Positions 3,285 to 31,441 of a stretch of DNA of 56,970 nucleotides are shown in pieces (position 1 is the first letter of the stretch; every line of letters begins with the position of its first letter). The notes beneath the pieces are model-generated. The model worked only from the letters and a program-made list of their open reading frames with translations, searched no databases and was not told the origin of the DNA. A program made the position numbers and the translations under genes. This DNA comes from a virus: the IMG/VR virus record IMGVR_UViG_3300033150_002962, positions 1 to 56,970 of that record; one strand, given 5' to 3'.

Positions 3285-3299
3285 AGTCAAATTATTAGT

Positions 3300-3548
3300 T
3301 TAGTAAAGTTTCATTTCTTTAATTCCCTCTATAATCTCTTCTTCTGGATAATCTCCTCTAATCCCCAATAATACGAGCCAAAATAAATGAGCCATATTGT
3401 CAGAAAGACCAATATCACCAGCCCAAGTGTGAAAACAGGTATTACAGGGAGAATTGTTAAACTGAATATGACAACCTACCAATTCTGCTATTTTATCTAC
3501 AATTTCCTTTATGTCTTTATCTACCTCTTTTTTATTTGCTTTTTTCAT
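3300..3548 (-). CDS. hypothetical protein, 82 residues
   Basis: An 82-residue frame with a Lys/Glu-rich N-terminus and a middle segment CHIQFNNSPCNTCFHTWAGD containing three Cys and two His, possibly metal-binding. The C-terminus is hydrophobic then acidic. It is closely spaced with the clamp-like gene downstream. No family was recognised. Confidence 0.5.
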   Translation of the reverse strand: MKKANKKEVDKDIKEIVDKIAELVGCHIQFNNSPCNTCFHTWAGDIGLSDNMAHLFWLVLLGIRGDYPEEEIIEGIKEMKLY

Positions 3549-4207: not shown

Positions 4208-4375
4208 TTTTTTGCTTATTAAACTATGCTCTTAATAAATTCTTACTAACTTCCTTACTTAAATCTATTTCGGGAGTTTTAAAATCACTTATTCCCCACT
4301 CCTATATGACAACTTAATAATTCATCAATTTGTTTCTTTGTTAATCTCATAGTTTTAGCTTTTTTTTTGACCTTT

Positions 4376-8366: not shown

Positions 8367-9326
8367 ATGAACTTTTGTCAATGCATCGCCGCAGAGAAGG
8401 ATGGATTCTCCTTCGGCAAAAGTTGGAGATATAACAAGGATTCGATAGTGGCTATTCTTCCTATTTTAAGAAAGACTCGAAAAAGGAGGAATTATCTTCT
8501 TTTATCTGAGGCTAAAAATGTTAAGATAACGGATACTGGCAAAATTAACAAAGTAGAAGTGGAGAATAACGAGAAAAAACCAGTTTACATCAGAATGAGT
8601 GAGATTTTTTCTGGTGATACTCAAGAGAGAATAGCTGTTAGGAGTTATTTGATTATGCCAGGAGAGAAAGTTGGAATAGATGTGCGTTGCGTTCATGCCT
8701 CTAAAGGAATTTATACCGGATCTACTATGACTTCCTCGGGAATAGCTACTTCCAATTTTGATTCTTATTTGTCTCATACCAATTTTAAAATGAGGAATGT
8801 GGAGCAAAGAACAATTTGGAATGCGGTTAGTTCTACTTCTCAAAATTTCACGGGAAGGTTATATGACTTGTCCACAACTGCAGGAGAGATTCCTATAATT
8901 GAGGAAACTAATTTTGCTGGTTCGGATGATTTAGAAGGGAATCTCAAGACTTTCTCAGAAAAGATTAAATCTATTCTGAACCAAATACCCAGATTTGAGA
9001 ATCAAGTTGGCATGGCTCTTTTGGATTTAGAGGGGGTACCAGGTTTAGAAGTCTTTGATTTGCCTGAATCTTGGGAAATTATGAGAGAAAAAGTGATAGA
9101 GAAGGAAGGAGAGAAAATTTCTAAATTGAAAGAACATCTGCCATTTGAATTTAAAGAAGAGAGAGGCAAAGAATTCGTCAAAATTCTTCTTCAGTCTGAT
9201 TTCCAGGAAAAAGTTATTTCTAAAAGCAAAGACTGGAGGCTGATAGCACTTGAAAATGAGAATTATACTGGAGAGAGAGTCGAACTCTCCGATAGAGTTA
9301 TTCATTTAGTTTTAACTAGAAAATAA
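8367..9326 (+). CDS. ARPP-1-like (DUF6569-type) protein
   Basis: The 319-residue protein matches the remembered pattern of the ARPP-1/DUF6569 family: a segment YLLLSEAKNVKITDTGKI followed by VENNEKKPVYIRMSEIFSGDTQERIAVRS and then VGIDVRCVHASKG, where the family has 'aL..g.v.v.E....l.v.N.s..pvl...GeiL.G..QdRv' and 'i.V.CVE.grW'. The family was described in work on uncharacterised components of prokaryotic conflict and stress systems; its biochemical activity is, as far as I know, unknown. The C-terminal third is a helical, charged extension. Inverted repeats flank the gene, and it is the first gene of the rightward block. It may be a cargo or defence-related gene. No Shine-Dalgarno is seen. 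Confidence 0.55.
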   Translation: MNFCQCIAAEKDGFSFGKSWRYNKDSIVAILPILRKTRKRRNYLLLSEAKNVKITDTGKINKVEVENNEKKPVYIRMSEIFSGDTQERIAVRSYLIMPGEKVGIDVRCVHASKGIYTGSTMTSSGIATSNFDSYLSHTNFKMRNVEQRTIWNAVSSTSQNFTGRLYDLSTTAGEIPIIEETNFAGSDDLEGNLKTFSEKIKSILNQIPRFENQVGMALLDLEGVPGLEVFDLPESWEIMREKVIEKEGEKISKLKEHLPFEFKEERGKEFVKILLQSDFQEKVISKSKDWRLIALENENYTGERVELSDRVIHLVLTRK

Positions 9327-10447: not shown

Positions 10448-11920
10448 GTGAATATAAAAATTCCTAATTTTTTTAAGAGAAAAAAAAGGAGTAAGAAAGA
10501 AAGGAAGGTTTTGACTATCAGCGAGTTTATGAAAGAGTTCGGTTTGGCTCGTGAAGGAGTCTTAAGCTCGTATGAAACAGAAGAAAATCCAGATGAATTG
10601 ACTCCCGAAGATTATATTCAGATGCAGAGCAATGATGGTGAAATACAGGCTATAGTTAGACTTCTGACTTTACCTATAATTTCAACTCCTATTCATATTC
10701 TTCCAGCAGAAGGAGATAAGGGAGAAAGAGACTTTATAGAAATGGTTTTTATGAATCCTCCAGGTCAAGGTGGGATGACTACCCCACTTCCTTTTATTGT
10801 GGCTGATATGACCAGAGCAATTTTTGAGGGATTTAGACTTTATGAGAAAGTAGCCAGAATAATTCCCGATGGTAAGTACAAAGGTAAAGTGGGTTGGAAA
10901 AAATTAGCTCCGAGGGATGCTCAAACTATTACCTTAAAACCTGATAAGCATGGCGGTTTTGCTGGAGCACATCAGGATGCAACATTTGGGGGAGAAACCG
11001 TCTCTATAGACTTTCCTCCTGAAAAGTGTCTTTTATTTACCTTTCAAAAAGAAAAACATTGGCTTTATGGCGAATCTATATTAAAGACGGCCTGGTATCA
11101 TTATGACAAAAAACATAAGTTATATTATTTAACTCATAAAAAGGCCGAGTTGGACACATTGGGTTTGAAAATATTAAAAATTGGACAGACTACCACTCCT
11201 CAAGAAAGAGAGAGAGCAGAAGAAGTGGTGGATACTCTTGGAGTTAATTCAAGAGTGACTTTGCCTCCAGGAATTGAACTTGAAATTCAGAGAGGTGGTG
11301 AAAAAGGTTTTGATCCTCTTCCTTTAATTGAACATCATAATAGTGAAATGAGTAAGTCAGCTTTGGTGCAGGTCTTAGATCAGATTAAATATGCTTATCC
11401 ATATGGGAAAGGAACCCAAAGCTCTCAATATGCCACCTTGTCTATTCAATCTATTATGAATCAGATGGAATCTACCTTGAATACTTATGCTGTGGCTCCC
11501 CTTATAGATTGGAACTTTGGCAGTCAAGCATATCCAAGAATTGAATTTGAGAAGATAACTGGACAGACTGCTCAATTCTTGGAAACGGTCTTTTCTAAGA
11601 TAGCAGACTCTAAACGATTGCCTGATGGTTTTGTGGACGAAGTAATTGATGAGACTGCAAGGAATTTAAAACTCAAGTGGATTCATAAGAAAGAGGAAGA
11701 GACAGAGAAAAGGAATAAGAATTTGTTAAAATCTTTTGAAGAAGGAAAGCGAAGAAGAAGTGATGAGCTTAAAATAAATGCTCCAAAGACTCCTCAGTCT
11801 TTGAAAGATAGTATATTAAATTTAAAACCTGGTCCCGACTTGGAAATTAAATGTTTTAAGTTGGGTCAGAAATATGCTGATGGCCAAAAGAAAAAAAATT
11901 TGTCCCAGATGCGGAACTAA
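10448..11920 (+). CDS. portal protein (Mu gp29/DUF935-like)
   Basis: The 490-residue protein has the portal pattern: SNDGEIQAIVRLLTLPI near the N-terminus (choice of helices around the clip), a beta segment with PRDAQTITLKPD, KEKHWLYGESILKTAWYHY, and a helical C-terminal part (QYATLSIQSIMNQMESTLN). The latter is the stem/crown region of DUF935-like portals that dock the terminase. It starts with GTG at 10448. Its C-terminal codons overlap a 37-residue zinc-ribbon frame. The dodecameric portal would be the head vertex for packaging, but no terminase is encoded in the window. Confidence 0.8.
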   Translation: MNIKIPNFFKRKKRSKKERKVLTISEFMKEFGLAREGVLSSYETEENPDELTPEDYIQMQSNDGEIQAIVRLLTLPIISTPIHILPAEGDKGERDFIEMVFMNPPGQGGMTTPLPFIVADMTRAIFEGFRLYEKVARIIPDGKYKGKVGWKKLAPRDAQTITLKPDKHGGFAGAHQDATFGGETVSIDFPPEKCLLFTFQKEKHWLYGESILKTAWYHYDKKHKLYYLTHKKAELDTLGLKILKIGQTTTPQERERAEEVVDTLGVNSRVTLPPGIELEIQRGGEKGFDPLPLIEHHNSEMSKSALVQVLDQIKYAYPYGKGTQSSQYATLSIQSIMNQMESTLNTYAVAPLIDWNFGSQAYPRIEFEKITGQTAQFLETVFSKIADSKRLPDGFVDEVIDETARNLKLKWIHKKEEETEKRNKNLLKSFEEGKRRRSDELKINAPKTPQSLKDSILNLKPGPDLEIKCFKLGQKYADGQKKKNLSQMRN

Positions 11921-11993: not shown

Positions 11994-12049
11994 TGAAGTG
12001 GTTATTCATTGGTCGTTATCATAAATAACTAGATTTGATTTCTGCAAAA

Positions 12050-15000
12050 ATGTTAGTTCCATCAGACATTCCTGAATTGATACAGCCTGGAAGAACAATT
12101 ATGTTGCCTGGAAAAATTTTGGTGAAACCCCATGGTACTTTGATTTGGCAAAGAAAGAAAAAAGCAATAGTCAGTTCAAGATTATTTAAGAAATATATTG
12201 GAATTCCAGTGTATTTGATTGAGGAAGACAAAGCTTTAGGAATCATCGAACTAAAAGAAGGCAGAAAGATTGATTTAAAAGAATTTAAGAAACTGAGAAA
12301 ATTTCATAAGATTTCAGATTCTGAATACAGAAAGTGGTGGAAAGGGAAGAAGACTTTGTACTATTACCCAATCGAACTCATCTCGAAATTTGATCCTCCT
12401 AAAGAAATCATCAGACCAAAAGGTGCTCAGGTTTGGTTAGAAGGTGTAACTTTCAAAAGTATGAACTTTGGTGATCCAGCTAAATTCAGCGATGAAGAAC
12501 TTTTGGATATGCATAAGAAACTGCATAAAATATGGCAACAATCAGCAGCTTCGAAAGAAGAATGTATCAACTATCACATTTTAATTAAGAATGAGATATT
12601 AAAAAGAAAACTCAAACATGAGGTAATGGATGATAATTTAGATAAAGAATCAAAAAAATTTGAAGAAAGATTTAGCAAAGAAGGTTACAAAGTTTCATTT
12701 TACGGGACAAAAGGTTTAATTGAAGAAGAAGGTCCTGGACATAGGTTCCATACTGCGATTCTCTATGAGTATAAAGGCAAAAGACTTTTAGTGGATTACG
12801 GGGAGATAAATCAGGGTAACCTAAGTGAAATTAAACCAGACTATTGTTTGGTTAGCCACTCCCACCCAGATCATCTTTTAGGTTTGAAAGATATGTCTGT
12901 CATAGTTTCCAAAGAAACTGCAAAAGAAATTCCAAATCTTTATAAAGATTTCAACATTGATACCAGAGCAAAATATGAATCTTATAAGACTTTTAATCTA
13001 GGTCCCTTCAAAATAACCCCAATTCCCGTTCTTCATTCTATTCGGGCAAAAATGCATGTTTTCATAATTCAAATGGGTGATAAGAAAGTTCTTCAAGCAA
13101 CAGATATCCTAGGTTGGCATTCTGGAGATAAGGAAAAGTATGTTAAGAAATTGGATTTAGCAATTATTGATGGTTCTTCTCTTACCAGAACTTTGGCGAG
13201 AAGAAAAGGGAAAGCAGGTGAACCATATGGTCATAGTAGCATCGCCAATCAGTTAAAGAATTGGTATACAGTTGATAATGTTAAAAAGATTATAATTACT
13301 CATTTAGGTAAAGAATCGCTGAGTTATGGAGATGATGTTTTGTTAACTAAAATTAAAGAGTTAACAAAAATTCCTGCCATCATAGCAACAGATAACACGG
13401 TTATCAATTTAAGTGAGAATTCAGCGCCGATTTATACTTCTGGTAAGAGAATGGGAAAGACCTTAGTTTTGAAAGAGGTATTGCCTTATTTTAAAAATTT
13501 TACCATTCAAAGACCGCTTGTTTATCTTACGGGAGGAATAGTGAACCGAGGTGCAACAAGAGGAGATTTGGATATTCTTTTACCTGAATGGTTGAGTTTT
13601 GATATGAGAAGAATAATTGAATTTAGAATAGCTAGAAGTCTTCCTTGGTGGATTAGAAGAAGATTGCATTTTGTTTATGATAAATTTTCAACTCCTTTCA
13701 CAAATGCTATTCCTCTTTATAATCTGGTGATGTTAAGAAGCAAAGATAGAATGCTGAAACTTTCTGAAATTGAAAAAGAACTAAGAGAAAAACCCCGAGT
13801 TGCTTCAGCGGTCAAGGATGCTGAGACTTCAGCAAGAGAAGATAAAATTAAATTGTTCAGATTTTTCTTGCCGTTAAAACCCACAAGAGGGTATTATCCA
13901 GAAAAAAGACAAACGATTGTTTTATTTACTGAAGTAATGGAGGGAATAGGGAAATATCCTTTTTATTCAACTAAGAAGTATGATGGATTTAATTGTGAGT
14001 TGCATAAAAAAGGAAATGAAATAAAAATCTTTTCGGAAGATGGTGAAATCATAACTAACAGATTGCCTACTTTGATTGAAGAAGTGAAAAGATTAACTAA
14101 AGAAGATTGTGTATTGATGGCCGAATTAGAATGGTGGGAAGACAATGACCATAAACCAAGAGAAGTAATTGCTGGTTATATGCATCAAAAAGGAATGCCT
14201 GATGATTCTCATGTGGTTGCTAATGTTTATGATATGCCTTATTTTAAAATTGATATCCATAATGAGTCTTTTGAAAAAAGATTAAAGTTACTTGAGTCTT
14301 TGCCTTTTAAGCAAAGAACATGGAAAATTCCAGATACAAAAATGAAATTGAATTTTGCCCCTTATCTTCTTTCAAAAAACAGAAGGGAACTAAGAAAACA
14401 TACAGAATTTTTAAGACGACTACCAGGTTCAGAAGGCAATGTTTGTAAGACAAGAGATTTCAAATTTAATCTCAAAGGTATACGGAGTGGGATGGTAAAA
14501 TTTCATAATTCAACAGCAGTTTATGGCAAGGTTCTTGAAATCAAAGAGACCAAAGTAAAAGAAGTATATAACTATTATTTCGGTTTAGAACCTGGAAAAT
14601 ACAAAATGAAGACAGAAAAACTTGGCAATGTTTTCTATCACCGTTCTGGTAGAACTTTCTCTACCTCTTTAAAAGCTAATAAAGGAGATGTCTTGGAGAT
14701 TGAGGGTGAAACTCTGAATGCTGAACATGATTTGACAGATGATACTTGGAGAATTTCGGTTTGGGCTCCGAGAGTAATGCGTAAGGTAGATAGGAAAGCA
14801 GATACGGTTAGAGAAACGATTGAGCGAGCAAAGAAGAATTATTGTTTACAGGAGAAGGAGATTACGAAAGAAGGAAAGATTATTTATCTATCTGAAATAG
14901 AAAAACTTCATTTGGAACAATTTAGAAGTGAAGGAATGGATGAAGATTTGAAAAATCCAAAGAAAAGAAAAAGAGAATTGATAGCAGATCTGAGATATTT

Positions 15001-16741
15001 GGGCAATGCTGGCTTTCCAAGATTAAAAGCAGGAAAAAAATGGGGTGATTGGACAATGGAAGATATTTTGAGATATTTTGCTAAGATAGTTGATGTTTTG
15101 CATAGTATTGGAATTGATATAAAACCAAAGAAAAAGACTGGCTCTTGGTATGAATGCTGGAAGCGAGCAGAAAAATATATGAAGACCAAGCTTAAGGTTG
15201 AAAAACTAGCTGACCCTTATATGGAATATCCCAAGCCAGAAGGAAAGAAAAAGTATGTAGTTCAGCATCACTATAGGGGTAAAAGTTGCCATTCCGATTT
15301 GAGGTTTAAGTATAATGAATTTCTTATTGGTTGGACTATCGCTGACCAAATCAAGGGAAAAATCAAAGAGCCAGTTCTTTCAATAGCTGAAGCGAAAAAA
15401 TATGATGCCCAAGATATCTGGAAAATAGATTGGAAGAAAGGTATTCCCAAATTAAGGCCTGGGATTAAGCCTGGATTCAAAGAAAAATATGCTGAAATAG
15501 CAGCGATGAGGAAATCAAGGGAGCCAGTGGAGTGGCTGAATGTCGAAGGTATAACACCAAAAGGAGAAGTGGGGGCAACGAAAGAATACCCTGGAGTTTT
15601 TCATATCATTGATAGGGGTTTTTGCGAATGCGGAACTCAAAAGTCTTATTTCCATGAATACTTCTTTTCTGGTGGCAAACTCAAGGGCAGGTGGTTTTTC
15701 AGGCAATTAAGACCTGCTGAATTTCGAGGAAAGATAGAGAAGCAGGAAGTTATACCTCCAGCAAGAGAAACAAAATTTAGAGAAGAAGCATCATGGTTCC
15801 TTGTTAAGCCATTAGACGAAACACCTTATGTTATTTCAGATGTGGCTGTTGAGAAAAAATGGATTCCTCCAAAGAATATTTCTGCTCTACCAGAAAAGAT
15901 AAAAAAGAAAATTTCCAAAGAATTTCAGTATTGGAAATTTGAAGATAAAAAGAAAAGGTTAGAAGTTAGAGATAAGTTAGTTGAAAAACTTGGAAAAGAA
16001 CTTGTTGAAAAAAAATTGAACCCAGGTGCAAGTTGGGCAAGGGCTGCTTATCGATATGTTTTGTCCCAACAGATTTTAACTTTTTGGCTTCGAACTCCTT
16101 ACCCGGAAAAAGTTAAACGGGTTGAGAAAGCACTACAAGAGTTCAAAGAGCTTCATCCACTTAAGAAAGAATGGCTGAAGGATATTATAACTTGGTTGAG
16201 AAAAAGACCCAACGATATGAAGTTGATTATGGTTGAACTTTTACAGATTGAAAAGGCAAAAACAGTTTCCTTTGTTTTGCAGTGGCATTGGTGGCGCGGA
16301 CAAAGGGTTATTAGAGCGGGAATCTCAAAAGAACATTGGGATTTGAGATTCAATTTTCCTGAAAGGGAAGGCTTGATGCATTTTGTTCTTAGTCAAAATC
16401 CTTTAAAAAATAAAGAGATTACAGCGATATGGAAACCTTGTAAATATAAAGAATGGATGGAAGTCTCTCAGTATCTTCCGCCTGCAAATGAAAGAGCAAA
16501 AATGTCAGAAAAGGAATTGGCAAAATTACCACCTGGAATAGAAGAAGCGAACCCAACTAAGGCAACGAGTTCATATATTAAGATAATAGATAAAGGGAAA
16601 GCAGTCGTTTATGAAGATTCTGATTCTTTTAAAAAATTTGAATTTAAAGGCAAAAAATTAAAAGGTCTGTGGATTTTAGAAAGGGAAGATGCCAGCAAGT
16701 TTTGGGTTTTAAAGAAAAGCGAACTTCCAAAGCCCAAATAA
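12050..16741 (+). CDS. giant DNA-repair fusion: MBL + nucleotidyltransferase + ATP-ligase + two LigD phosphoesterase domains
   Basis: Positions count from a TTG five codons upstream (12035; 1568 residues); the ATG at 12050 is the likelier start. Order: a beta-rich N-terminal domain (about 1-145) of unknown fold; a metallo-beta-lactamase fold with SHSHPDH (274-280); a polymerase-beta-type nucleotidyltransferase with GG...GDLDILL (500-516; Asp 511 and 513); an ATP-dependent DNA ligase with motif I KYDG (648-651), a motif III-like VANVYDMPYF (728-737), motif IV EGNVCK (800-805), a possible motif V (MVKFHN) and an OB domain; then two LigD-type 3'-phosphoesterase domains (QHHYRG...CHSDLRF, 1077-1091, and QWHWWRG...EHWDLRF, 1416-1439), each ending in GGKLKGRW- or KGKKLKGLW-like strands. 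It lies between portal and protease. A single-chain DNA end-processing and sealing enzyme is inferred. Confidence 0.8.
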   Translation: MLVPSDIPELIQPGRTIMLPGKILVKPHGTLIWQRKKKAIVSSRLFKKYIGIPVYLIEEDKALGIIELKEGRKIDLKEFKKLRKFHKISDSEYRKWWKGKKTLYYYPIELISKFDPPKEIIRPKGAQVWLEGVTFKSMNFGDPAKFSDEELLDMHKKLHKIWQQSAASKEECINYHILIKNEILKRKLKHEVMDDNLDKESKKFEERFSKEGYKVSFYGTKGLIEEEGPGHRFHTAILYEYKGKRLLVDYGEINQGNLSEIKPDYCLVSHSHPDHLLGLKDMSVIVSKETAKEIPNLYKDFNIDTRAKYESYKTFNLGPFKITPIPVLHSIRAKMHVFIIQMGDKKVLQATDILGWHSGDKEKYVKKLDLAIIDGSSLTRTLARRKGKAGEPYGHSSIANQLKNWYTVDNVKKIIITHLGKESLSYGDDVLLTKIKELTKIPAIIATDNTVINLSENSAPIYTSGKRMGKTLVLKEVLPYFKNFTIQRPLVYLTGGIVNRGATRGDLDILLPEWLSFDMRRIIEFRIARSLPWWIRRRLHFVYDKFSTPFTNAIPLYNLVMLRSKDRMLKLSEIEKELREKPRVASAVKDAETSAREDKIKLFRFFLPLKPTRGYYPEKRQTIVLFTEVMEGIGKYPFYSTKKYDGFNCELHKKGNEIKIFSEDGEIITNRLPTLIEEVKRLTKEDCVLMAELEWWEDNDHKPREVIAGYMHQKGMPDDSHVVANVYDMPYFKIDIHNESFEKRLKLLESLPFKQRTWKIPDTKMKLNFAPYLLSKNRRELRKHTEFLRRLPGSEGNVCKTRDFKFNLKGIRSGMVKFHNSTAVYGKVLEIKETKVKEVYNYYFGLEPGKYKMKTEKLGNVFYHRSGRTFSTSLKANKGDVLEIEGETLNAEHDLTDDTWRISVWAPRVMRKVDRKADTVRETIERAKKNYCLQEKEITKEGKIIYLSEIEKLHLEQFRSEGMDEDLKNPKKRKRELIADLRYLGNAGFPRLKAGKKWGDWTMEDILRYFAKIVDVLHSIGIDIKPKKKTGSWYECWKRAEKYMKTKLKVEKLADPYMEYPKPEGKKKYVVQHHYRGKSCHSDLRFKYNEFLIGWTIADQIKGKIKEPVLSIAEAKKYDAQDIWKIDWKKGIPKLRPGIKPGFKEKYAEIAAMRKSREPVEWLNVEGITPKGEVGATKEYPGVFHIIDRGFCECGTQKSYFHEYFFSGGKLKGRWFFRQLRPAEFRGKIEKQEVIPPARETKFREEASWFLVKPLDETPYVISDVAVEKKWIPPKNISALPEKIKKKISKEFQYWKFEDKKKRLEVRDKLVEKLGKELVEKKLNPGASWARAAYRYVLSQQILTFWLRTPYPEKVKRVEKALQEFKELHPLKKEWLKDIITWLRKRPNDMKLIMVELLQIEKAKTVSFVLQWHWWRGQRVIRAGISKEHWDLRFNFPEREGLMHFVLSQNPLKNKEITAIWKPCKYKEWMEVSQYLPPANERAKMSEKELAKLPPGIEEANPTKATSSYIKIIDKGKAVVYEDSDSFKKFEFKGKKLKGLWILEREDASKFWVLKKSELPKPK

Positions 16742-16753
16742 ACTCTTGACCCT

Positions 16754-19198
16754 ATGAACAAGTTATTATATTATCCAAAAATAGAATTTCAATTTCCACT
16801 TTTTTTGAGTGAGAAAAAAGAGAAAAAAGAAAGATTTATTCTTGAAGGATTTGCTGTTGCGAATGATTTTGATTTACAGAATGATATTATTACTGATAAA
16901 GCTTTAAGGAAAAGCATAAAGGATTTCAAAGAATATGGAAAATTCTGTTTGAACCATACAAAAGAAGAAATAGGAAAAGTTCTTGATTGTGTTTTCAGGA
17001 AAGGGAAAATTTGGATTAAGACTGAAGTAGATAAACCAAAAATTATAGATAAAATCAAATCAGGAGAACTAAATAGCCTCTCGGTCAAAGGAGAGATAAA
17101 ATATGGAGAAAAGGTCGAGTTATTTCCTGATTTGAAATTAAGAGTAATTAAGGATTTGCATATTGAGGAAGTATCATTAGTTCCGCAAGGTGCAAATCCA
17201 GAAGCAAAAGCCATTCGATGGTATGTATCCAAAGCTATTGATATGGCTGAAAAAACCATGAACAAAAATTTAGAAGAAGATTTCGAAGAGTTAAGTGAAA
17301 CTGAAGAGGAAAGTTTAGAAGATGATAAAGAAGAAACTGAAGAAACGGAGGCCGAAGGGACTAAGGAAGAGGAGGAAACTGAGGAAGAGGGAACTGATGA
17401 GTCTGAAGAGGATACGGAAGAAGTCGAGGATAAAGAAGAAGGTGAGGACAAAGAGGAAGAAACTGAAAAGGAAGAGGATGATAAGGAAGACAAGGATGAG
17501 GAAGATGAAGAAGATGAGGAAGAGGATGACGATGAGGAAGAAGAAAAAACTGAATTAACTGAGAAAATTTATGTAGAGAAATCCGCTTACACCGATTGTA
17601 TGAAAAAAGAGCTTAAGAAAGGAACTCCATTTAAAGAAGCAGCAAAGATATGTAGCAAGAAAGTTAAGAAAGCTGGTAAAATAACTAAACTCGAAAAATC
17701 AGCTTATACCGATTGTATGAAAAAGGAGATGAAGGCTGGAAAATCAATGAAAGAAGCTGCCAAAATTTGTAGCGGAAAAACTGAGAAGGCCAAAAGAACG
17801 GTTAAATATCCAAAATATCCTTCTAAATATCCCTATCAATATCCTTATCAATATCCCTACCGTTATCCTTACCGTTATCCTTATGGTTATCCTTATCCAG
17901 TTCGGAAGGCTACGACTAATCTTGATTCAATTTTAGGAGATCTTGATTCTATAATTAAAGAAGCCGATGAAAAGATTGCTACCAAGTTAAAAAAGATTCG
18001 TGAGAAAATTATCAGTCTAAAAGAAAAGTATCCTTCAGCATATCCTAGTCCTAAAAAAGAATTGGCTGAAAATCAAGATTTGATTTACCGAGTTTATAAC
18101 AATGGATTAATCAAACTTAGCGAAGGGAATAGATTTAAAAAGGAGATATTGAGAGTTGGTTCTTGGTTTCATGAATCGAGTAAAAATGGAATTTTGAAAG
18201 TTTCAAAAGAGACACTAAGAAAGCTGTATGAGAATTTTAAAAAAGGAGTTCTTGATAATGTTACTGTTCCTTTGGGACATCCTGTTGGTGACGAGCCAAT
18301 GAAGAATGCAGGTCAGGTTAATGATTTGGAACTTTCAAAAGATGGAACCAAACTTTCTGCAATTATTGAAGTGAAAGATGATGCAGTTGCGGAAAGAATC
18401 AAAAAGGGTTTGATTAATGGAATCTCAGCTAGTTTTGTTGAAGATTATATGAGAAAGGATACAGGGGAAAGGATTGGTCCGACTTTATTTCATGCGGCCT
18501 TAGTTACCGAACCTTATATCAAAGGAATGGAAAACTTTGTTCCGCTTTCAGAAAATTTTGAGGGTAAATTGGTTATTCCAATTCTGAATTCCGAACCTCC
18601 CTTGACCCAAGAGGAAATTAGTTCGAAAATAAGAAGGATAGAGAAGAAATTGGAATTAAATGAAGATGAAACTTCAGAGGAAACTTCGGAGGAAACTTCA
18701 GAAGAAACTTCAGAGAAAGAAGAGTCTGAGTCTTCTAAAGTTGGTCAAGATACCGAGGAAGAAGAAAAAGAGGAATCTGAATCTGAAGAATCTGTAACTG
18801 AAGAAACTTCCACTGAAGAGAATTCTGAAGAAAAAGAAGTTGATTTAGCCGAGAAAAGATATAACGCTCTTCTCAGGATGGGAAAAGTAACTCCTACAGA
18901 AAGAGAACTTTTACTTCCATTACTTGGTTCTGATTCCAAAATAGAATTGGAAGATGGAAAGAAAGTAATGGTTGGTAAAGCTTTAGAAAAATTCCTGAAA
19001 TCTAAAAAGTCAATCTTTTCTTTATCAGAAGAAGGTATAATTAATGAAGATAAAGAAGAGAGAGAAAAAACTTCTGAAATTCCTGAGGATGGGAAGAAGG
19101 TAATGGAAGCAATGGAATTGGATGAAGATATTCAAAAAGAAGTTTGGAAAGAAGTTCAAGATGAGAAAAAAAAGGAAGGTGAATCAACTCCTTTCTAA
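16754..19198 (+). CDS. double prohead protease/scaffold (XkdF-like + Mu gpI-like)
   Basis: Domain 1 (about 25-170) reads like an XkdF/S78 prohead protease, with His 68 (CLNHTK), Ser 110/112 (SLSVKGEI) and the ending EEVSLVPQGANPEA. A long Glu/Asp tract (about 173-266) follows, then two copies of a motif starting KSAYTDCMKKE (276-302 and 315-341), a run of YPYQ/YPYR units (352-383) and a helix. Domain 2 (about 440-610) has GHPVGDEP (His 509) and NGISASFVEDY (Ser 558/560), as in Mu gpI-type protease-scaffolds. A second Glu/Ser-rich linker and a C-terminal scaffold-like part (about 698-814) close it. Two protease folds in one chain are unusual; one may be inactive or may cleave the other. It would process capsid assembly before the gpT-like capsid encoded downstream. 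Confidence 0.7.
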   Translation: MNKLLYYPKIEFQFPLFLSEKKEKKERFILEGFAVANDFDLQNDIITDKALRKSIKDFKEYGKFCLNHTKEEIGKVLDCVFRKGKIWIKTEVDKPKIIDKIKSGELNSLSVKGEIKYGEKVELFPDLKLRVIKDLHIEEVSLVPQGANPEAKAIRWYVSKAIDMAEKTMNKNLEEDFEELSETEEESLEDDKEETEETEAEGTKEEEETEEEGTDESEEDTEEVEDKEEGEDKEEETEKEEDDKEDKDEEDEEDEEEDDDEEEEKTELTEKIYVEKSAYTDCMKKELKKGTPFKEAAKICSKKVKKAGKITKLEKSAYTDCMKKEMKAGKSMKEAAKICSGKTEKAKRTVKYPKYPSKYPYQYPYQYPYRYPYRYPYGYPYPVRKATTNLDSILGDLDSIIKEADEKIATKLKKIREKIISLKEKYPSAYPSPKKELAENQDLIYRVYNNGLIKLSEGNRFKKEILRVGSWFHESSKNGILKVSKETLRKLYENFKKGVLDNVTVPLGHPVGDEPMKNAGQVNDLELSKDGTKLSAIIEVKDDAVAERIKKGLINGISASFVEDYMRKDTGERIGPTLFHAALVTEPYIKGMENFVPLSENFEGKLVIPILNSEPPLTQEEISSKIRRIEKKLELNEDETSEETSEETSEETSEKEESESSKVGQDTEEEEKEESESEESVTEETSTEENSEEKEVDLAEKRYNALLRMGKVTPTERELLLPLLGSDSKIELEDGKKVMVGKALEKFLKSKKSIFSLSEEGIINEDKEEREKTSEIPEDGKKVMEAMELDEDIQKEVWKEVQDEKKKEGESTPF

Positions 19199-19238: not shown

Positions 19239-19739
19239 ATGGCTGCGTTAACAGACGATTATGAGGCTGAACGACAAGAGGGAGATTTGATTAGATATAA
19301 GATTTATGCAGATGAGGATATCTACAAAGGTGCAATTGTTATGGTTGGAGCTGATGGTTATCTGAGAGCGGCAACTGATGCCGCCAATAGTGTGGTGGTA
19401 GGGGTTGCAGCAGAGAAATCTGAAGCACCTGATAATGATAAGAGTGGAGATAGAAGTGTCAGAGTTCATAGAAGAGGAGTATTCAAGTTTGCTACAGCAT
19501 TTAGAGCTGCTCAACGAGTAGTTGGAGATCAAGTCTTTGTGGTAGACGATAATACTGTTGGTGAAGTAGGAGATGTCACAAATGATCTTGTGGTTGGACA
19601 AGTAGTGAAATTCATTGATAGTTCTACTGTGAAAGTTGATATTCAAGGTGGAATAGGTGAATATGCTCAAAAATCTTGGAGTTCTTCTAGTTCTAGTTTC
19701 TCAAGCAGTTCATTTTCAAGCTCTTCTGAGAGTGCATAA
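19239..19739 (+). CDS. capsid decoration protein with Ser-rich tail
   Basis: The 166-residue protein resembles DUF2190-like capsid cement proteins: DIYKGAIVMVGADGYLRAAT and GVAAEKSEAP early on, then strand-rich sequence. Its last 20 residues or so are almost only Ser with Phe at intervals (SSSFSSSSFSSSSESA). Position between protease and capsid supports a decoration role. The Ser tail would project from the capsid surface; it may be a glycan acceptor (inference). The AAAGGTC box lies 30 nt before the ATG. Confidence 0.65.
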   Translation: MAALTDDYEAERQEGDLIRYKIYADEDIYKGAIVMVGADGYLRAATDAANSVVVGVAAEKSEAPDNDKSGDRSVRVHRRGVFKFATAFRAAQRVVGDQVFVVDDNTVGEVGDVTNDLVVGQVVKFIDSSTVKVDIQGGIGEYAQKSWSSSSSSFSSSSFSSSSESA

Positions 19740-19741
19740 TT

Positions 19742-20686
19742 ATGTTAGTAAAATCTGATATTCCAAAACTATTAGAGGCTGGAATGAGAAAGACATTCAT
19801 GAAAGAGTTTAGAAAGCATGAAGCTGAATGGGAAAGAATTGCTACTAGAATAAACTCAACCAAGAGTGAAGAAACCTATCCTTGGTTGGGTGCGGTACCT
19901 GACTTACATGAATGGGTAGACGAAAGAGTTCCACAGGGTCTTTTAGAACATCATTTCTCCATTAGGAATCGATCTTGGGAAAGTTCTATTTCTGTGGATA
20001 GAGATGCATTGGAAGATGAACAGTATGGCCAGATTAATATCAGAGTAAGAGATTTGGCAAATAAAGCTGGAAGGTTCTGGGGCAAAATGGTATATACCTT
20101 ATTAAACCAAGGGGATAACACCACAGGAGAAGATGGAACAATTCTTGAAGGCAAAGATATTTCCTGTTATGATGGTCAGGCTTTCTTTTCAGATTCTCAT
20201 GAAGAAGGTGAATCTGGAACTCAACGAAATGGAGATAACCTGGAATTGACTGCTGATAATCTTCAAACTGTAATTGAAGAAATGATGCAATGGGTGGATG
20301 ATAAGGGAAATCCACTTGAAGTTAGACCTAATCTCTTGATAGTTAATCCAAGTCAGCAATTTACTGCTCGAGAAATTCTGAATAGCCAATACTACCCAAC
20401 AGAGGTTGAAGGAACCAAACTTGCAACGAACGTTCTGAAAGGAGCTCTGGATCTTTATGTTACTCCATATGTAGATACTAATTTCTGGGCTGTTATAGAT
20501 ACCACTGGAATTGTTAAACCTATTATCCTTCAAATCAGACGAGATATTACCTTTGATAGTCTGACTAAGGATAATACTGATAGTTTCTTGAAAAAGAAAC
20601 TCTATTTCGGAGTTGATTTCAGGGGAAATGTTGGCTTTGGAATGTGGCAGTATGCTTACGGTTGTAATCCCGATTGGTCGCTCTAA
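19742..20686 (+). CDS. major capsid protein (Mu gpT-like)
   Basis: The 314-residue protein follows the Mu gpT pattern: WERIATRINSTKSEETYPWLG, DERVPQGLLEHHFSIRNRSW, then SISVDRDALEDEQYG, and a C-terminal part with NPLEVRPNLLIVNPSQQF, an HK97-fold element near VTPYVDTNFWAVIDT, and KKKLYFGVDFRGNVGFGMWQ. It starts 2 nt after the decoration gene. It forms the icosahedral shell. The gene directly precedes the sugar cluster. Confidence 0.85.
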   Translation: MLVKSDIPKLLEAGMRKTFMKEFRKHEAEWERIATRINSTKSEETYPWLGAVPDLHEWVDERVPQGLLEHHFSIRNRSWESSISVDRDALEDEQYGQINIRVRDLANKAGRFWGKMVYTLLNQGDNTTGEDGTILEGKDISCYDGQAFFSDSHEEGESGTQRNGDNLELTADNLQTVIEEMMQWVDDKGNPLEVRPNLLIVNPSQQFTAREILNSQYYPTEVEGTKLATNVLKGALDLYVTPYVDTNFWAVIDTTGIVKPIILQIRRDITFDSLTKDNTDSFLKKKLYFGVDFRGNVGFGMWQYAYGCNPDWSL

Positions 20687-20715: not shown

Positions 20716-20832
20716 AACCATTAGAAGGAGACTTCACTAAAAGGAGTTTATGATATCTAATGGTTTGGAGAGACCTTAAGGTTGTTGGGAAATTACGTCT
20801 CTCCAAGTTTCCTAACAAGAAAGGAGGTCAAC
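20716..20832 (+). ncRNA. structured leader with predicted pseudoknot
   Basis: AACCATTAGA (20716-20725) pairs perfectly with 20756-20765. Next, GGAGAGAC (20767-20774) pairs with GTCTCTCC (20797-20804), and loop GTTGGGAAA (20784-20792) pairs with TTTCCTAAC (20808-20816; one G-U) beyond the stem, which is H-type pseudoknot topology. The AGGAGG ribosome site and the ATG at 20833 follow at once, so translation of the sugar cluster may be gated by this fold. Confidence 0.6.
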
Positions 20833-21816
20833 ATGTCTAAAAGAGATTCCTTCCCATATGGAAAACAATATTGGGAATATATGAAAAAATTGAATATGGA
20901 AACGGCAAAAGTAATTAATGAACTGCGTTGGAATTTTGTTGAAGAAATAAAACCCAAAACAGTTCTTGATTATGGAGCGGGTTTGAATCTGCTAAAAGAT
21001 TTTAAGCCTAAAGGTACAGTGGTTGATACTTATGATATTGGAGATTTTCCAATTCAGTATACGGGAATCAGACATAGTCATTATGATCTGATTTTTCTTT
21101 GTGATGTCTTGGAGCATATTCCTGATTTTTTAGTACTTGATAGCTTATTCCAAATGACTGATTATGTTTTTGTTACCGTTCCCATTTTACCATTCGGAAA
21201 GAATTTGGATGGTTGGAAACATCTCAAATATCAGACTGGAGAGCATTTACATTATTTTACAGAGCGGAGTTTAGACTTATTCTTTCAAGTTAGAGGTTTC
21301 AAACTTATTAAGTCTGGTTATCCTGAAACAGAATCTGGAATCAGGGAAGATATTTATAGCGCATTATTCAGAAAAAAGAGTGTTGTATTTACCAATGGAG
21401 TATTTGATTTATTACATTCGGGTCATTTGCATCTCCTGAGAAAAGCTAGGAAACTTGGAGATAAATTAATTGTCGGAATTAATTCTGATGATTCAGCAAA
21501 GAGGTGGAAAAGAAAGCCAATCATTGGGGAAAAATTGCGGAAAGAACTTTTAGAAGCGATTAGTTTTGTAGATAGAGTTGAGATTTTTGATGAAGATAGT
21601 CCCTTGAATTTGATTGAGAATATCAAACCTGATATACTAGTTAAGGGAGGTGATTATACTTTGAAAACAGTAGTTGGTGCTGATTTTGTAAGAAAGTCGG
21701 GGGGTAAAGTAGTAATAATTCCTCTTTTGAAAGGTTTTTCAACAACTAATTTAATCCGACAAATTAAGAATAGCTCTTTGAAAAGGAGAAGCTTCCAATT
21801 TCAGAAAGGAGGCTGA
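20833..21816 (+). CDS. SAM methyltransferase fused to HldC-type heptose-1-phosphate adenylyltransferase
   Basis: Start: ATG at 20833 with AGGAGG; a frame extension to 20782 runs into the leader. Residues about 20-180 are a class I methyltransferase (VLDYGAG at 44-50, CDVLEHIPDF at 90-99). Residues 183-312 are a nucleotidyltransferase matching the C-terminal domain of HldE/RfaE: TNGVFDLLHSGH (HxGH, 195-198), LVKGGDY, and GFSTTNLI (301-308, versus STTNII in HldE). It makes ADP-heptose from heptose-1-phosphate and ATP. The methyltransferase substrate is unknown. The stop is 1 nt before the kinase gene, so the two steps of HldE are encoded side by side as separate proteins. Confidence 0.75.
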   Translation: MSKRDSFPYGKQYWEYMKKLNMETAKVINELRWNFVEEIKPKTVLDYGAGLNLLKDFKPKGTVVDTYDIGDFPIQYTGIRHSHYDLIFLCDVLEHIPDFLVLDSLFQMTDYVFVTVPILPFGKNLDGWKHLKYQTGEHLHYFTERSLDLFFQVRGFKLIKSGYPETESGIREDIYSALFRKKSVVFTNGVFDLLHSGHLHLLRKARKLGDKLIVGINSDDSAKRWKRKPIIGEKLRKELLEAISFVDRVEIFDEDSPLNLIENIKPDILVKGGDYTLKTVVGADFVRKSGGKVVIIPLLKGFSTTNLIRQIKNSSLKRRSFQFQKGG

Positions 21817-21817
21817 G

Positions 21818-22600
21818 ATGAAGGTTGCTATCGTCGGTGATAGTTTCATTGATGAATATCGTTTTGGAAAAGTTGAAAGAATTTCTCCTGAAGCTCCTGT
21901 TCCAATTATAGATGTTGAGCGGACAGAGATTAGAGCTGGTGGAGCTCTTAATGTAGCAATTAATCTGATGGGGTTGGGAATAATTCCAGTTGTATTTACT
22001 ATCATTGATGATGAATTTGCAAGAGATTTTGATTTCGAAATCATTAGTCCCAAAAGGTGTCAATCTCTGAGAAAGACAAGAATAGTAGCTCAACGTCAAC
22101 AATTACTGAGGATAGATGAGCCTTCGGTTTATCGACCAGAAGATTTAGAAGGAATCCTATTACCCAATCCTTGTGATTTCGAAGTTATTGCTTTTGTAGA
22201 TTATGATAAAGGATTCATAAAAGGCGGTAAGGCAACTATAGTTGACTCCAAAAAGAAAGACCTCTCTGTTTTTAAGGGAACTGAAATTCTTAAGATTAAT
22301 CAGTTTGAATTTGCTGAAGCTAAAAATCCTGATTTTCCTCAAGCATTTATTACTCGGGCTGAGAAAGGAATTGATTATTATGAGAATGGAAAGTTTGTTG
22401 AAAATGTTCCAGCAGATGTCAAAGAAGTCATTGATGTTACAGGTGCAGGTGATACCGTAATGTCGATTCTGATTTTTTGTCTTTTAAATGGAATAAGGAA
22501 TCCTAGAAAAATGATGGAGCTTGCTAACAAGGCAGCAGGAATTGTAATTTCTAGATTTGGAACTTCTGCTATCAGCCTCGATGAACTTTTTGATAATTGA
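21818..22600 (+). CDS. HldA-type D-glycero-beta-D-manno-heptose-7-phosphate kinase (PfkB family)
   Basis: The 260-residue protein matches the HldE N-terminal domain: VAIVGDSFIDEY, RISPEAPVPI, RAGGALNVAINL, QLLRID, and the catalytic GAGD (209-212) in DVTGAGDTV. It is about 50 residues shorter than usual HldA; the missing part is in the middle (lid and nearby). It phosphorylates heptose-7-phosphate at C1. A good AGGAGG precedes the ATG at 21818. GmhA, GmhB and HldD are not encoded here, so the host would supply heptose-7-phosphate, and a GmhB-type phosphatase if one is needed. Confidence 0.75.
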   Translation: MKVAIVGDSFIDEYRFGKVERISPEAPVPIIDVERTEIRAGGALNVAINLMGLGIIPVVFTIIDDEFARDFDFEIISPKRCQSLRKTRIVAQRQQLLRIDEPSVYRPEDLEGILLPNPCDFEVIAFVDYDKGFIKGGKATIVDSKKKDLSVFKGTEILKINQFEFAEAKNPDFPQAFITRAEKGIDYYENGKFVENVPADVKEVIDVTGAGDTVMSILIFCLLNGIRNPRKMMELANKAAGIVISRFGTSAISLDELFDN

Positions 22601-22615
22601 ATCTTCTCCAAAAAT

Positions 22616-22660
22616 AGGAGAGAATCTTGAGAAACCTCTTGATTCTCTCCTTTCCTTTTT
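22616..22660 (+). terminator. terminator-like hairpin between kinase and GT9-like gene
   Basis: AGGAGAGAATC (22616-22626) pairs perfectly with GATTCTCTCCT (22641-22651), followed by TTTCCTTTTT. The hairpin lies 16 nt after the kinase stop and 5 nt before the ATG at 22665. It may be a partial attenuator that sets the ratio of sugar-nucleotide enzymes to transferase. Confidence 0.6.
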
Positions 22661-22664
22661 AAAT

Positions 22665-23708
22665 ATGTTTCCAATAAATTATATTGATGCAAAAACACCA
22701 TGGGAGTTATGGGCAGAAGCTCATCCCGAAATAGTTAAAAAGAAAAGAAAAGTAATCCTTAGACAAGGCCAATCGCCCGGCGATATTTTAGTATTTACCA
22801 GAGCTGTTGGTGATTTAAAGGAAAGTTATCCAAATTATCAAATTGATATCAGATCTCCCGCTCCCGAAATTTGGGAGAATAATCCAAGATTGAGTCCTTT
22901 AAATGAAAATGATGAAGGAGTGGAGATTTTCAATATTGGATATGAAGAAATTCACCAATCTGGTTGGAATGGTCTGCATTTTTCAGATGCTTTCAGGCAT
23001 GAACTGGAAAAGAAACTTGAAATTCCAATCAAAAAGACTGGTATAAAACCAGAATTATGGATATCAGAGCAAGAAAAAAGTTGGTATAATCAAGTTCATT
23101 GTGAATTTGGATGGGATGGACCATTTTGGCTTATAAATGCTGGCAGAAAACAAGATAATGAATTAAAACAATATCATCGCTGGCAGGAGTTTGTTGATTT
23201 GTTTAATAATTATTTTGATGGTCGAGTTAAGTTAGTTCAGATAGGGCATCAAGCTCATATTCATCCTCCCTTAAAAGGAGTCTTAAATTTAGTTGGCAAG
23301 ACCAATCTCAGAGAATTAATCAGGCTTGGATATTGGGCTGAAGGAACTATTGGACCTATCTCATTTCAATTCGAAATGTCTGCTGCATTTGAACAGCCAG
23401 CAGTAGTTGTAGCTGGGGGAAAAGAAGGAGTCCTTTGGCAAATCTATCCGCATATTCAATATATCTATTCCAATGGTTGTATGGAATGTTGTAAATGGGA
23501 TGGTTGTTGGTTAGGAGGTTCGATAAAAGGAAAGTGTAAAAATCTAATTAAGACGGATAAGGGGGAAGTTCCAAGATGTTTTGAAATTATTACCCCAGAA
23601 AGAATATTGGATTCGGTAAAGATGTATTATAAAGGTGGAAGATTAATAATTCCTGATGATGAGACTTATAGGAATTTGAAAAATAAATTCGAAAAATTCA
23701 ATGATTGA
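22665..23708 (+). CDS. GT9-like (hepto)syltransferase with Cys cluster
   Basis: The ATG at 22665 gives 347 residues; upstream starts would run through the hairpin. GDILVFTRAVGDLKESYPNY (39-58) is the N-terminal motif of ADP-heptose-type GT9 glycosyltransferases. Near the C-terminus are six Cys (272, 275, 276, 281, 291, 305) in GCMECC, WDGCW, GKCKN and PRCFEIITPE. The spacing and the ending 'C..-ITPe.I' recall bacterial autotransporter O-heptosyltransferases (TibC/Aah type), whose Cys bind iron. This suggests protein O-heptosylation with ADP-heptose made by the two preceding genes. LPS heptosyltransferase is the alternative. Confidence 0.65.
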   Translation: MFPINYIDAKTPWELWAEAHPEIVKKKRKVILRQGQSPGDILVFTRAVGDLKESYPNYQIDIRSPAPEIWENNPRLSPLNENDEGVEIFNIGYEEIHQSGWNGLHFSDAFRHELEKKLEIPIKKTGIKPELWISEQEKSWYNQVHCEFGWDGPFWLINAGRKQDNELKQYHRWQEFVDLFNNYFDGRVKLVQIGHQAHIHPPLKGVLNLVGKTNLRELIRLGYWAEGTIGPISFQFEMSAAFEQPAVVVAGGKEGVLWQIYPHIQYIYSNGCMECCKWDGCWLGGSIKGKCKNLIKTDKGEVPRCFEIITPERILDSVKMYYKGGRLIIPDDETYRNLKNKFEKFND

Positions 23709-24375
23709 GAAGATAGATATAGTTATTTTAACGAAAGATGAGATTGATTTTACAAAACAATGTCTTAGAAGTCTAAAAACCAATACTAAATTAGAATTTC
23801 GTTTGATACAAGTAGATAATGCTTCTGTTGATCAAACACTGGAATGGGTCTATAATTTCTGTTACTCCAATGAAATTGAGCTGTTACAAATAAAAAATAA
23901 GGTGAATCATTGGGTTTATACTTCAATAAACCAAGGACTTAAAGCTTCTGATTCAGAACTAATAGTAGTTATAAATAATGATATTATTTTTGCACCTCTA
24001 GCCATTGATAATTTAATTAAAGAACTTAAAAAATCTAATTCGTTATTAGTTTACCCAAGTTTTACTAGAAAGAAGCTTCCTAAGAATTTTCCAAAAAATA
24101 CTGAACGAGAACACAAAGGAATTCCTCTATTTTGTTTTGCTATTAAAAGAAAAGCATTTAGGATTATTGGTTATTTTGATGAGAAATTTAAACTAGCTCG
24201 AGGGGATATAGACTATATTAAGCGTCTTACTTGTTCTGGATATTCTCCTAAAGAAGTTTTAGATAGTTATGTGCATCATTTTGAAAGTAAGACTTTAAAG
24301 AAAATAACAGGTTGGAAAAACATAGCGAACAGTGATAAACAATATTATTATGGAAGAAGAGTTAGAAAATCTTAA
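23701..24375 (+). CDS. GT2-family glycosyltransferase
   Basis: The 224-residue protein is a GT-A/GT2 enzyme: DIVILTKDEIDFTKQCLRSL at the N-terminus, LIQVDNASVDQTLEW (nucleotide-binding loop) and ELIVVINNDIIF, where the usual DxD is replaced by NND. ARGDIDYIKRL near the C-terminus corresponds to the ED/acceptor region. It overlaps the previous gene by 8 nt. It extends or caps a glycan; the sugar donor is unknown. Confidence 0.7.
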   Translation: MIEKIDIVILTKDEIDFTKQCLRSLKTNTKLEFRLIQVDNASVDQTLEWVYNFCYSNEIELLQIKNKVNHWVYTSINQGLKASDSELIVVINNDIIFAPLAIDNLIKELKKSNSLLVYPSFTRKKLPKNFPKNTEREHKGIPLFCFAIKRKAFRIIGYFDEKFKLARGDIDYIKRLTCSGYSPKEVLDSYVHHFESKTLKKITGWKNIANSDKQYYYGRRVRKS

Positions 24376-25384
24376 AAATAATCGAAAAAAAGTGCTTATA
24401 ACTGGAGGCACTGGTTTTGTGGGTTCGCACATTGTTTCAGGATTCTTAAAAGAAACCAATTGGGATATTAAGATTTTAGATAGGCTTTCCTATGCTGGGA
24501 ATTTAAATAGAATAACCGAAATTGATAACTGGAAACTCGAAAAGGATAGAGTTAAATTTGTTTATCATGACTTAAGAAGCCCTATTTCTTCAATTATTGA
24601 TAAGTTGATTGGCGAAGTAGATTATATTATCCATTTAGCGGCTGAAAGTGATGTGCAAAGAAGTCTCAAAAACGCTTTACCTTTTGCTCAAAGTAATGTG
24701 GTTGGAACCACTAATTTATTAGAATGGATAAAAAATTCAAGACCTAATATCAAAAAATATATTGGTTTTAACACTGATGAAGTTTATGGACCAGCTGAGA
24801 AAGGAGAATATCATCCGGAAACCGATAAGTTTTATCCGTCAAATCCGTATTCGGCAGCAAAGGCGGGACAATGGTCTATGGAATATGCTTTCGCTCATTC
24901 GTTTAAGATTCCGATTTGTATGGTTCATTCAATGAATATATTTGGAGAAAGACAGCATCCTGAGAAGTTTGTTCCAATGGTTGTAAGGAAAATTTTAAGA
25001 AAGGAAAAAGTTATAATTCATGGCAAACCCAATCAAATCTCTCAAAGACATTGGTTATTCACTAAAAATATCTATGATGGTCTCTTCTTCTTGTTATTTA
25101 ATGGAAAAAGGGAAGAAAGTTATAACATAGTTGGAGAGGAAAAAGATGCTCTTTGGATGGCCAATAAGATTTCCCAAATTATACAGGGCAGAAAATTAAA
25201 GGAAAATGAGATAGAATTTAAAGATTATCATGTTTTAAGACCCGGTCATGATTTTAGATATGCATTATCAGGTGAGAAGTTAAAAAAATTAGGCTGGATA
25301 CCAAAATTAAATTTAGAAGAGTCATTAAGAAAATGTGTGGAATGGATGATAAGACCTGAGAATCAAAAATGGTTGGATTTATAA
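24350..25384 (+). CDS. NAD-dependent sugar dehydratase/epimerase (dTDP-glucose 4,6-dehydratase-like)
   Basis: Extended SDR: TGGTGFVGSHI at the N-terminus, ILDRLSYAGNLNRI (a RmlB hallmark), IHLAAESDVQRS, NTDEVYGPA and the YxxxK catalytic pair in NPYSAAKAG. About 344 residues from the ATG at 24350 (a GTG at 24332 is possible), normal for RmlB. It makes dTDP-4-keto-6-deoxyglucose or a related sugar. It overlaps the preceding GT gene. RmlA, RmlC and RmlD are absent. Confidence 0.7.
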   Translation: MEEELENLKNNRKKVLITGGTGFVGSHIVSGFLKETNWDIKILDRLSYAGNLNRITEIDNWKLEKDRVKFVYHDLRSPISSIIDKLIGEVDYIIHLAAESDVQRSLKNALPFAQSNVVGTTNLLEWIKNSRPNIKKYIGFNTDEVYGPAEKGEYHPETDKFYPSNPYSAAKAGQWSMEYAFAHSFKIPICMVHSMNIFGERQHPEKFVPMVVRKILRKEKVIIHGKPNQISQRHWLFTKNIYDGLFFLLFNGKREESYNIVGEEKDALWMANKISQIIQGRKLKENEIEFKDYHVLRPGHDFRYALSGEKLKKLGWIPKLNLEESLRKCVEWMIRPENQKWLDL

Positions 25385-25401
25385 TTGAGATTTAAAGAGT
25401 T

Positions 25402-28032: not shown

Positions 28033-28034
28033 TT

Positions 28035-31313: not shown

Positions 31314-31401
31314 AAGAGATTTCCATTTAGAGCTTATTTTTGGGTGGAAGAATCACCCACTGGGTGGAAGTTTCTCTTAGGGAATCTCTTCTTCCATCCA
31401 G
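31314..31401 (+). ncRNA. structured leader of the fibre gene with interlocked stems
   Basis: AAGAGATTTCC (31314-31324) pairs with GGGAATCTCTT (31380-31390), and CTGGGTGGAAG (about 31360-31370) pairs with CTTCCATCCAG (about 31391-31401; one G-U), so the helices interlock as a pseudoknot or compete. The hairpin TGGGTG/CACCCA lies in the first loop. GGGTGGAAG occurs twice and could swap partners. Confidence 0.55.
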
Positions 31402-31430
31402 AAATGGGCTCTTAAATGCCCATTTTTATT
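31402..31430 (+). terminator. intrinsic terminator after the sugar cluster
   Basis: AAATGGGC (31402-31409) and GCCCATTT (31418-31425) form a perfect 8-bp stem with an 8-nt loop, followed by a T-rich run. It lies only 12 nt before the ATG at 31442, so with the interlocked stems upstream it may act as an attenuator. Confidence 0.65.
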
Positions 31431-31441
31431 TAATCTTTACT

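Follow-up and report, generated by a model that had tools for sequence, protein, structure and literature searches.

The long open reading frame in the head gene block of a virus record of 56,970 bp (IMG/VR IMGVR_UViG_3300033150_002962, analysed over its whole length and referred to here as the window) encodes a member of a modular, previously undescribed polyprotein family, in which an ATP-dependent DNA ligase is combined with LigD-type phosphoesterase (PE) domains and a set of further enzyme-like domains. With confidence only a little better than even, we interpret the protein as an end-healing and nick-sealing polyprotein that is carried into the procapsid with the head maturation protease and acts on the packaged or ejected genome. 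The source virus is head-tailed, probably with an archaeal host, and many viruses of the family probably infect anaerobic archaea. Features were assigned at the following window coordinates, with the basis of each assignment in parentheses.

10448-11920 (+): portal protein, Mu type, immediately upstream (Pfam Portal_Mu, E 3.5e-30; phrog_113)
12035-16741 (+): polyprotein ORF, 1568 aa from TTG
12092-12469 (+): PUA/ASCH-like domain, aa 20-145, with invariant His91 (family profile)
12689-13429 (+): metallo-beta-lactamase (MBL) domain, aa 219-465 (Pfam, ligands)
13469-13759 (+): minimal Pol-beta-type nucleotidyltransferase (NTase), aa 479-575 (motif and predicted topology)
13832-14509 (+): ATP-dependent DNA ligase catalytic domain, aa 600-825 (Pfam, motifs, predicted structure)
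14510-14869 (+): ligase OB-fold domain, aa 826-945 (predicted structure aligned to LIG1 up to residue 940)
14870-15202 (+): variable middle segment, aa 946-1056 (comparison with relatives)
15203-15739 (+): LigD-type phosphoesterase domain 1 (PE1), aa 1057-1235 (profile matches, metal motif)
15740-16219 (+): conserved linker between PE1 and PE2, aa 1236-1395 (kept in 66 loci; dN/dS 0.07)
16220-16738 (+): LigD-type phosphoesterase domain 2 (PE2), aa 1396-1568 (predicted fold)
16754-19198 (+): head maturation protease/scaffold-like protein, 12 nt downstream (phrog_976/80/3244; XkdF-domain alignment)
19239-20686 (+): capsid cement and major capsid protein (Mu gpT type), marking the head gene block

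The polyprotein frame opens with TTG at 12035; an in-frame ATG lies at 12050, five codons further on, relatives start there too, and this ATG is the more likely start, which would give a product of ~1563 aa. Chance or mis-assembly as the origin of the frame was ruled out by a second, separate 77-kb IMG/VR contig, on which the polyprotein region is 99.996% identical, and by three divergent relatives in which one frame is kept over most of the protein (L003, 82% identity; L005, ~76%; L091, 67-78%). An earlier reading of the sequence alone had raised the possibility that the frame is split in related genomes by mis-assembly, and in these nearest relatives it was found intact. Relative to L003, dN/dS was 0.06-0.11 across all assigned domains, indicating purifying selection, and the domain assignments are therefore not due to chance. 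For the middle segment dN/dS was 0.36, a value obtained where the two sequences largely differ; this segment is different in L003, has a related sequence elsewhere in L007 and had no match among isolate phages. The 77-kb contig, otherwise 99.996% identical, carries ~76 extra bases (L004 2182-2259) relative to source position 4293.

Relatives were collected in five scans, two of them with single-domain profiles, which gave a family on ~95 distinct contigs: the ANMV-1 record, 4 contigs of bacterial and archaeal genome bins, and for the remainder viral contigs of IMG/VR. Counted by locus, PE1 occurs in 92, the ligase in 86, PE2 in 82, the NTase in 64, the PUA/ASCH-like domain in 42 and the MBL domain in 25, and the last two are regarded as accessory because they are absent from many family members. 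The order of domains is rearranged in some relatives (NTase-ligase-MBL-PUA/ASCH-methyltransferase-PE1-PE2 in L006), and the module is divided among neighbouring genes in L009, L013, L063 and many more, which shows that having everything in one chain is not a requirement. The L112 ORF at 6744 is without ligase and PE1 and has instead a short motif resembling one found in other phage head proteins. Three different inteins were found in the family, at ligase motif I (L010, around 2932-3404), at the PE1 metal motif (L091, in the PE1 region) and at a PE1 C-terminal motif (L005:13570-14546). Inteins usually occupy conserved sites of essential proteins. Among isolate phages searched for close relatives, ANMV-1 alone was recovered, besides short or methyltransferase-only matches; it is the sole isolate-level record found, and its gene (AJP62006.1) is annotated 'ATP-dependent DNA ligase'. 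Some bins of the phylum Halobacteriota also gave matches, the strongest on viral-looking contigs, and the weakest, covering PE2 alone, may be cellular PE proteins. No match was returned from 287 genomes of the bacterial phylum of the AUK254 bin in a search run without a positive control.

The ligase segment matched Pfam DNA_ligase_A_M (E 7.5e-13) and, by profile, was nearest to archaeal and eukaryotic DNA ligases (best E 7e-24), and in a structure search the predicted model of residues 580-940 reached Z 25 both to human LIG1 and to ligases of archaea. The nucleotidyltransferase and OB domains and the KxDG lysine that define the ATP-dependent DNA ligase superfamily are present, with active-site residues K648 (motif I, KYDG), E697, E800-G801, K805 and K822. 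Conservation across ~73 sequences was 100% for Lys, 92% for Asp and 99% for Gly of motif I, 99% for Glu of motif III, and 100% for Glu, Gly and Lys of motif IV and Lys of motif V. The ligase had been called complete, which holds for the catalytic and OB domains with their motifs but not for the DNA-binding domain of LIG1, which is lacking. When residues 1-945 were submitted to the structure search, ligases filled the list of matches, and the lack of MBL, NTase or PUA/ASCH families in that list carries no weight. The same affinities bear on the repair of RNA, for example of defence-cut tRNA, as the function of the polyprotein, with PUA/ASCH binding RNA, MBL and PE processing ends, the NTase adding and the ligase sealing. 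The presence of PUA/ASCH-like and RNase Z-like domains, and of a PE able to act on 3' ribonucleotides, would suit such a role, but the ligase is nearest to DNA ligases by both profile and structure and has an OB fold, and no RNA ligase was among its best matches; we regard RNA repair as very unlikely.

PE1 was identified by matches to LigD_N (E 3e-4, short of the Pfam cutoff) and TIGR02777 (E 1e-6). Its metal-site residues are H1079, H1086, D1088 and R1090; His, His and Asp of the triad were each present in 79/79 sequences and Arg in 78/79. In the PE domain of P. aeruginosa LigD, His42/His48/Asp50 and Arg52 hold Mn2+, and the enzyme further depends on His84 and Tyr88, being inactivated when these are mutated (PMC8656161). 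These last two are replaced in the source virus by E1163 and W1167, and across the family by Glu/Gln (His in 2/79 only) and by Trp (79/79), a correspondence taken from the motif alignment of HPLxYxxFEG with EPVEWLNVEG and not from structure superposition. PE2 retains H1418, H1434, D1436 and R1438 in the source virus, residues that most relatives have lost: the catalytic His and Asp are kept in 34/87 sequences, the source virus included. Its predicted fold aligned with the archaeal LigD PE 3p43 (Z 15.8, rmsd 1.9, 119 aligned). Matches to PE2 filled the list when the PE region was submitted to the structure search, and the assignment of PE1 is based on its sequence and on comparison of the PE1 and PE2 profiles, which hhalign relates to each other with a probability of 95 (E 2e-8). 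The two LigD-type 3'-phosphoesterase domains named in the sequence-only reading are thus both present as folds, but a pair of active copies is not upheld, PE2 being degenerate in most relatives.

In a mixed survey with Pfam at 1e-3, nothing was returned for the PUA/ASCH and NTase segments, whose identification took profile searches and the use of a relative closer to the canonical form. The N-terminal PUA/ASCH-like domain, which was missing from the earlier list of domains, matched TTHA0113 (1wk2/2dp9) through the family profile (E 2e-9), while the threshold for Pfam ASCH was not reached in this segment. For the NTase, Pfam NTP_transf_2 was matched solely in the relative L044 (E 6.5e-4, slightly below the cutoff). 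The GG...DxD motif (G500-G501, D511, D513) and a predicted alpha/beta topology agree with the polymerase-beta-type nucleotidyltransferase recognized earlier, and the motif was conserved at G in 58/58, at the first D in 57/58 and at the second D in 58/58 sequences. The position of the third catalytic acid is N563; Asp stands there in 36/58 relatives and Asn in the source virus and its clade, and the gap filling formerly ascribed to this domain is not sustained for that clade.

The MBL domain matched Pfam Lactamase_B_2 (E 4.9e-8) and has all of its ligands (H275, H277, D279, H280, H334, D357 and H423), with H400 invariant and the HxHxDH and further ligands 95-100% conserved (22 sequences); MBL-only rows were left out of the folding alignment. 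Its nearest solved relatives by profile were RNase Z and PhnP, together with Apyc1, an anti-Pycsar phosphodiesterase that scored below these two; SNM1A, of the SNM1/Artemis-type DNA nucleases (MBL plus beta-CASP), was matched at E 1e-4 only, after RNase Z and PhnP. A nuclease-type fold had been proposed; the metallo-beta-lactamase domain with its ligands stands, but these relatives do not bear out a DNA nuclease. The accessory domains are also the basis for a polyvalent role in counter-defence, in which delivered effectors would oppose host restriction, CRISPR or nucleotide signalling, the ligase and PE mending cuts while MBL, PUA/ASCH and the methyltransferase neutralise defences. The variable occurrence of these domains (MBL in 25 loci, PUA/ASCH in 42, the methyltransferase in some) and the presence of Apyc1 among the MBL matches are consistent with this, as is the existence of head-linked multidomain effectors as a class (PMC5512222). 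The constant core, in contrast, consists of ligase and PE (86 and 92 loci), a repair activity and not an effector, and the MBL domain is nearer to RNase Z and PhnP than to Apyc1, so counter-defence is judged quite unlikely as the main function.

Loss of catalytic residues across most domains had been named as a possible weakness of the enzymatic interpretation, and it was found only in part, the ligase, MBL and PE1 metal sites being nearly invariant but the NTase third acid and PE2 weaker. A mainly structural head protein, assembled from recycled enzyme domains whose activities have ceased to matter, would accord with the loss of PE2 catalytic residues in most relatives and of the NTase third acid in some. 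It is hard to reconcile with ligase, MBL and PE1 metal-site residues kept at ~92-100% despite high divergence, and we consider it extremely improbable.

As noted from the sequence alone, the polyprotein gene lies between portal (10448-11920) and protease-like (16754-19198) genes, and its link to head genes proved stronger than was then apparent. At 26 distinct loci the polyprotein ends in an XkdF head-maturation protease, both being read as a single frame, and at 38 further loci of the 95 the protease gene starts within 2.5 kb downstream, mostly within 100 nt. Pfam PF14550 (XkdF) matched 24/27 scanned segments, one of the 27 being the protease of the source virus, at up to E 2e-34, and in XkdF-type segments the Ser is invariant and the His nearly so. 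In the source virus itself the protease is a gene separate from the polyprotein. Among 63 upstream neighbours portal proteins were commonest (phrog_2662 in 21, phrog_12 in 18, and others), together with minor head proteins, and among 80 downstream neighbours head maturation proteases were commonest; portal, minor head protein and protease neighbours recur across many portal families. Identification of the polyprotein as MuF was rejected, since L006 and (by a weak match) ANMV-1 have MuF as a neighbouring gene of its own. L064 and L071 contain a short motif that recurs in the HFTV1 scaffold/protease, at its N-terminus. Short two-Cys motifs (SAYTDCM... and PFAGYKDFADCV...) occur in head protease and PE proteins (16754-19198; L064:9908-12148), and the motif PFAGYKDFADCV... 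occurs also in the HFTV1 scaffold/protease.

Tailed-phage head proteases commonly act inside the procapsid, and a polyprotein fused to one should therefore enter the procapsid. The fusion to a capsid-maturing protease in 26 relatives suggests that the repair functions are transported within the virion. It is left unexplained if the protein is an unpackaged late enzyme that repairs replicated or concatemeric DNA inside the cell to keep the terminase-portal motor from stalling, a role with which the adjoining portal and late genes, and the terminase-like and other genes elsewhere on the same 77-kb contig, are compatible and which we consider unlikely.

Under the favoured interpretation, in which end healing and nick sealing are brought into the head, the polyprotein would be expressed late together with the head genes, would enter the procapsid by association with the head-maturation protease, would be cut free by it within the head, and would act on the genome there or when newly ejected on entry. 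PE1 may trim 3' phosphates or 3' ribonucleotides to leave 3'-OH, after which the ligase would self-adenylate on Lys648 and seal the nick. Where it is active, the NTase may contribute nucleotide addition or filling; PE2 would be mainly a DNA-gripping or structural copy, and PUA/ASCH and MBL would be accessory, possibly serving RNA or cyclic-nucleotide counter-defence. The fuller proposition, that the family shares a virion-borne repair system delivered by protease fusion or coupling, released proteolytically and ejected to repair or circularise the genome on entry, is put forward tentatively, its chances being somewhat below even.

Conservation of the ligase core (92-100%) and its closeness to archaeal and eukaryotic DNA ligases, the PE1 triad (79/79) and the inteins in or near active-site motifs favour packaged repair; the 26 fusions, 38/95 adjacent proteases, head neighbours and dN/dS of 0.06-0.11 favour it as well. 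A precedent by analogy is African swine fever virus (ASFV), whose particles carry the repair enzymes Pol X, ligase and AP endonuclease (PMC12172490); its particle likewise holds a DNA ligase along with a member of the Pol-beta family, but as separate proteins and in an unrelated virus group, and the parallel is one of function only. Against packaged repair are the replacement of His84/Tyr88 in PE1, the lack of a Ku match in the 8 virus records searched, the separate protease of the source virus, the distance of the ANMV-1 protease from the polyprotein, and the split or rearranged module elsewhere.

Bacterial LigD (POL-PE-LIG) resembles the viral protein in that one chain holds an ATP-dependent DNA ligase, a 3'-phosphoesterase and a domain that adds nucleotides, and the PE metal triad (His42/His48/Asp50) with Arg52 and ligase motifs I, III, IV and V are present in both. 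The sequence-only reading had treated these activities as normally spread over several proteins; since LigD combines them, the single chain is less unusual. The two differ in the nucleotide-adding domain (primase-type POL in LigD, Pol-beta-like with GG/GS...DxD in the virus), in PE His84/Tyr88 and in the Ku partner, and the viral ligase core is nearer to archaeal and eukaryotic ligases, has two PE copies beside it and is encoded among head genes. Ku (PF02735) had no match in 8 virus records, most of them fragments; the polyprotein may thus work like LigD but is not LigD, and the end joining of double-strand ends proposed earlier is not borne out.

Archaeal stand-alone LigD-type PE proteins (3p43, 3p4h, 5dmp) share the fold of PE2 (Z 12.7-15.8), whereas the viral copies are in tandem, embedded in a large polyprotein beside a ligase. 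Archaeal and eukaryotic LIG1-type ligases share the catalytic and OB domains (Z ~25), but the viral protein has no recognised N-terminal DNA-binding domain and the NTase precedes the ligase instead. ANMV-1 AJP62006.1 is a true relative (866 aa, NTase-ligase-PE1-PE2), likewise directly behind a portal gene, but is without PUA/ASCH and MBL and has a degenerate PE2; PE, NTase and head link are all missing from its annotation. The polyvalent proteins that phages and conjugative elements encode are similarly large, modular and multidomain, and partly predicted to be packaged and injected (PMC5512222). For the viral family, computation establishes the domains, their conserved active-site residues, purifying selection, the constant place among head genes and the protease fusions; packaging and delivery into the cell we infer from head synteny and the fusions, and release by the protease and a DNA substrate would belong to the same proposal. 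LigD or LigD-type PE, XkdF and metallo-beta-lactamase are absent from the main text of that paper, where 'ligase' occurs three times, the passages seen dealing with RNA ligases. Neither 'ligas' nor ANMV-1 occurs in the main text of the ANME-1 virome paper, and the polyprotein family is not described in the literature searched.

If the interpretation is true, tailed-virus heads may also carry a repair and end-joining function, the entry of the enzyme into the head would be explained by its being cargo of the maturation protease, and a testable idea is gained of what preserves the infectivity of viral DNA through long persistence when hosts grow slowly. A name and an active-site map are also provided for a family of ~95 contigs, whose only isolate-level record found reads 'ATP-dependent DNA ligase'.

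Further features were recorded in the window. A protein with an ARPP-1 (ARG and Rhodanese-Phosphatase-superfamily-associated) domain is encoded slightly upstream of the head genes (8367-9326). Between capsid and tail genes, a block at 20782-31287 resembles sugar metabolism and possibly serves virion glycosylation; it contains a methyltransferase-cytidylyltransferase fusion, a PfkB kinase, and ORFs that appear epimerase-like and glycosyltransferase-like by sequence. It is followed at 31340-34288 by an ORF of 982 aa that weakly matches the YadA head repeat and lies in a higher-GC island (~0.45 vs 0.33), at 41873-48118 by a 2081-aa ORF where GC skew falls to about zero, and at 50671-51645 (-) by a papain-family cysteine protease. 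The rest of the 77-kb contig (L145 6920-8410 (-), 4354-6913, 13693-14517) has ORFs that, judged from their sequences, are terminase-like, DNA-methyltransferase-like (three) and prohibitin-like.
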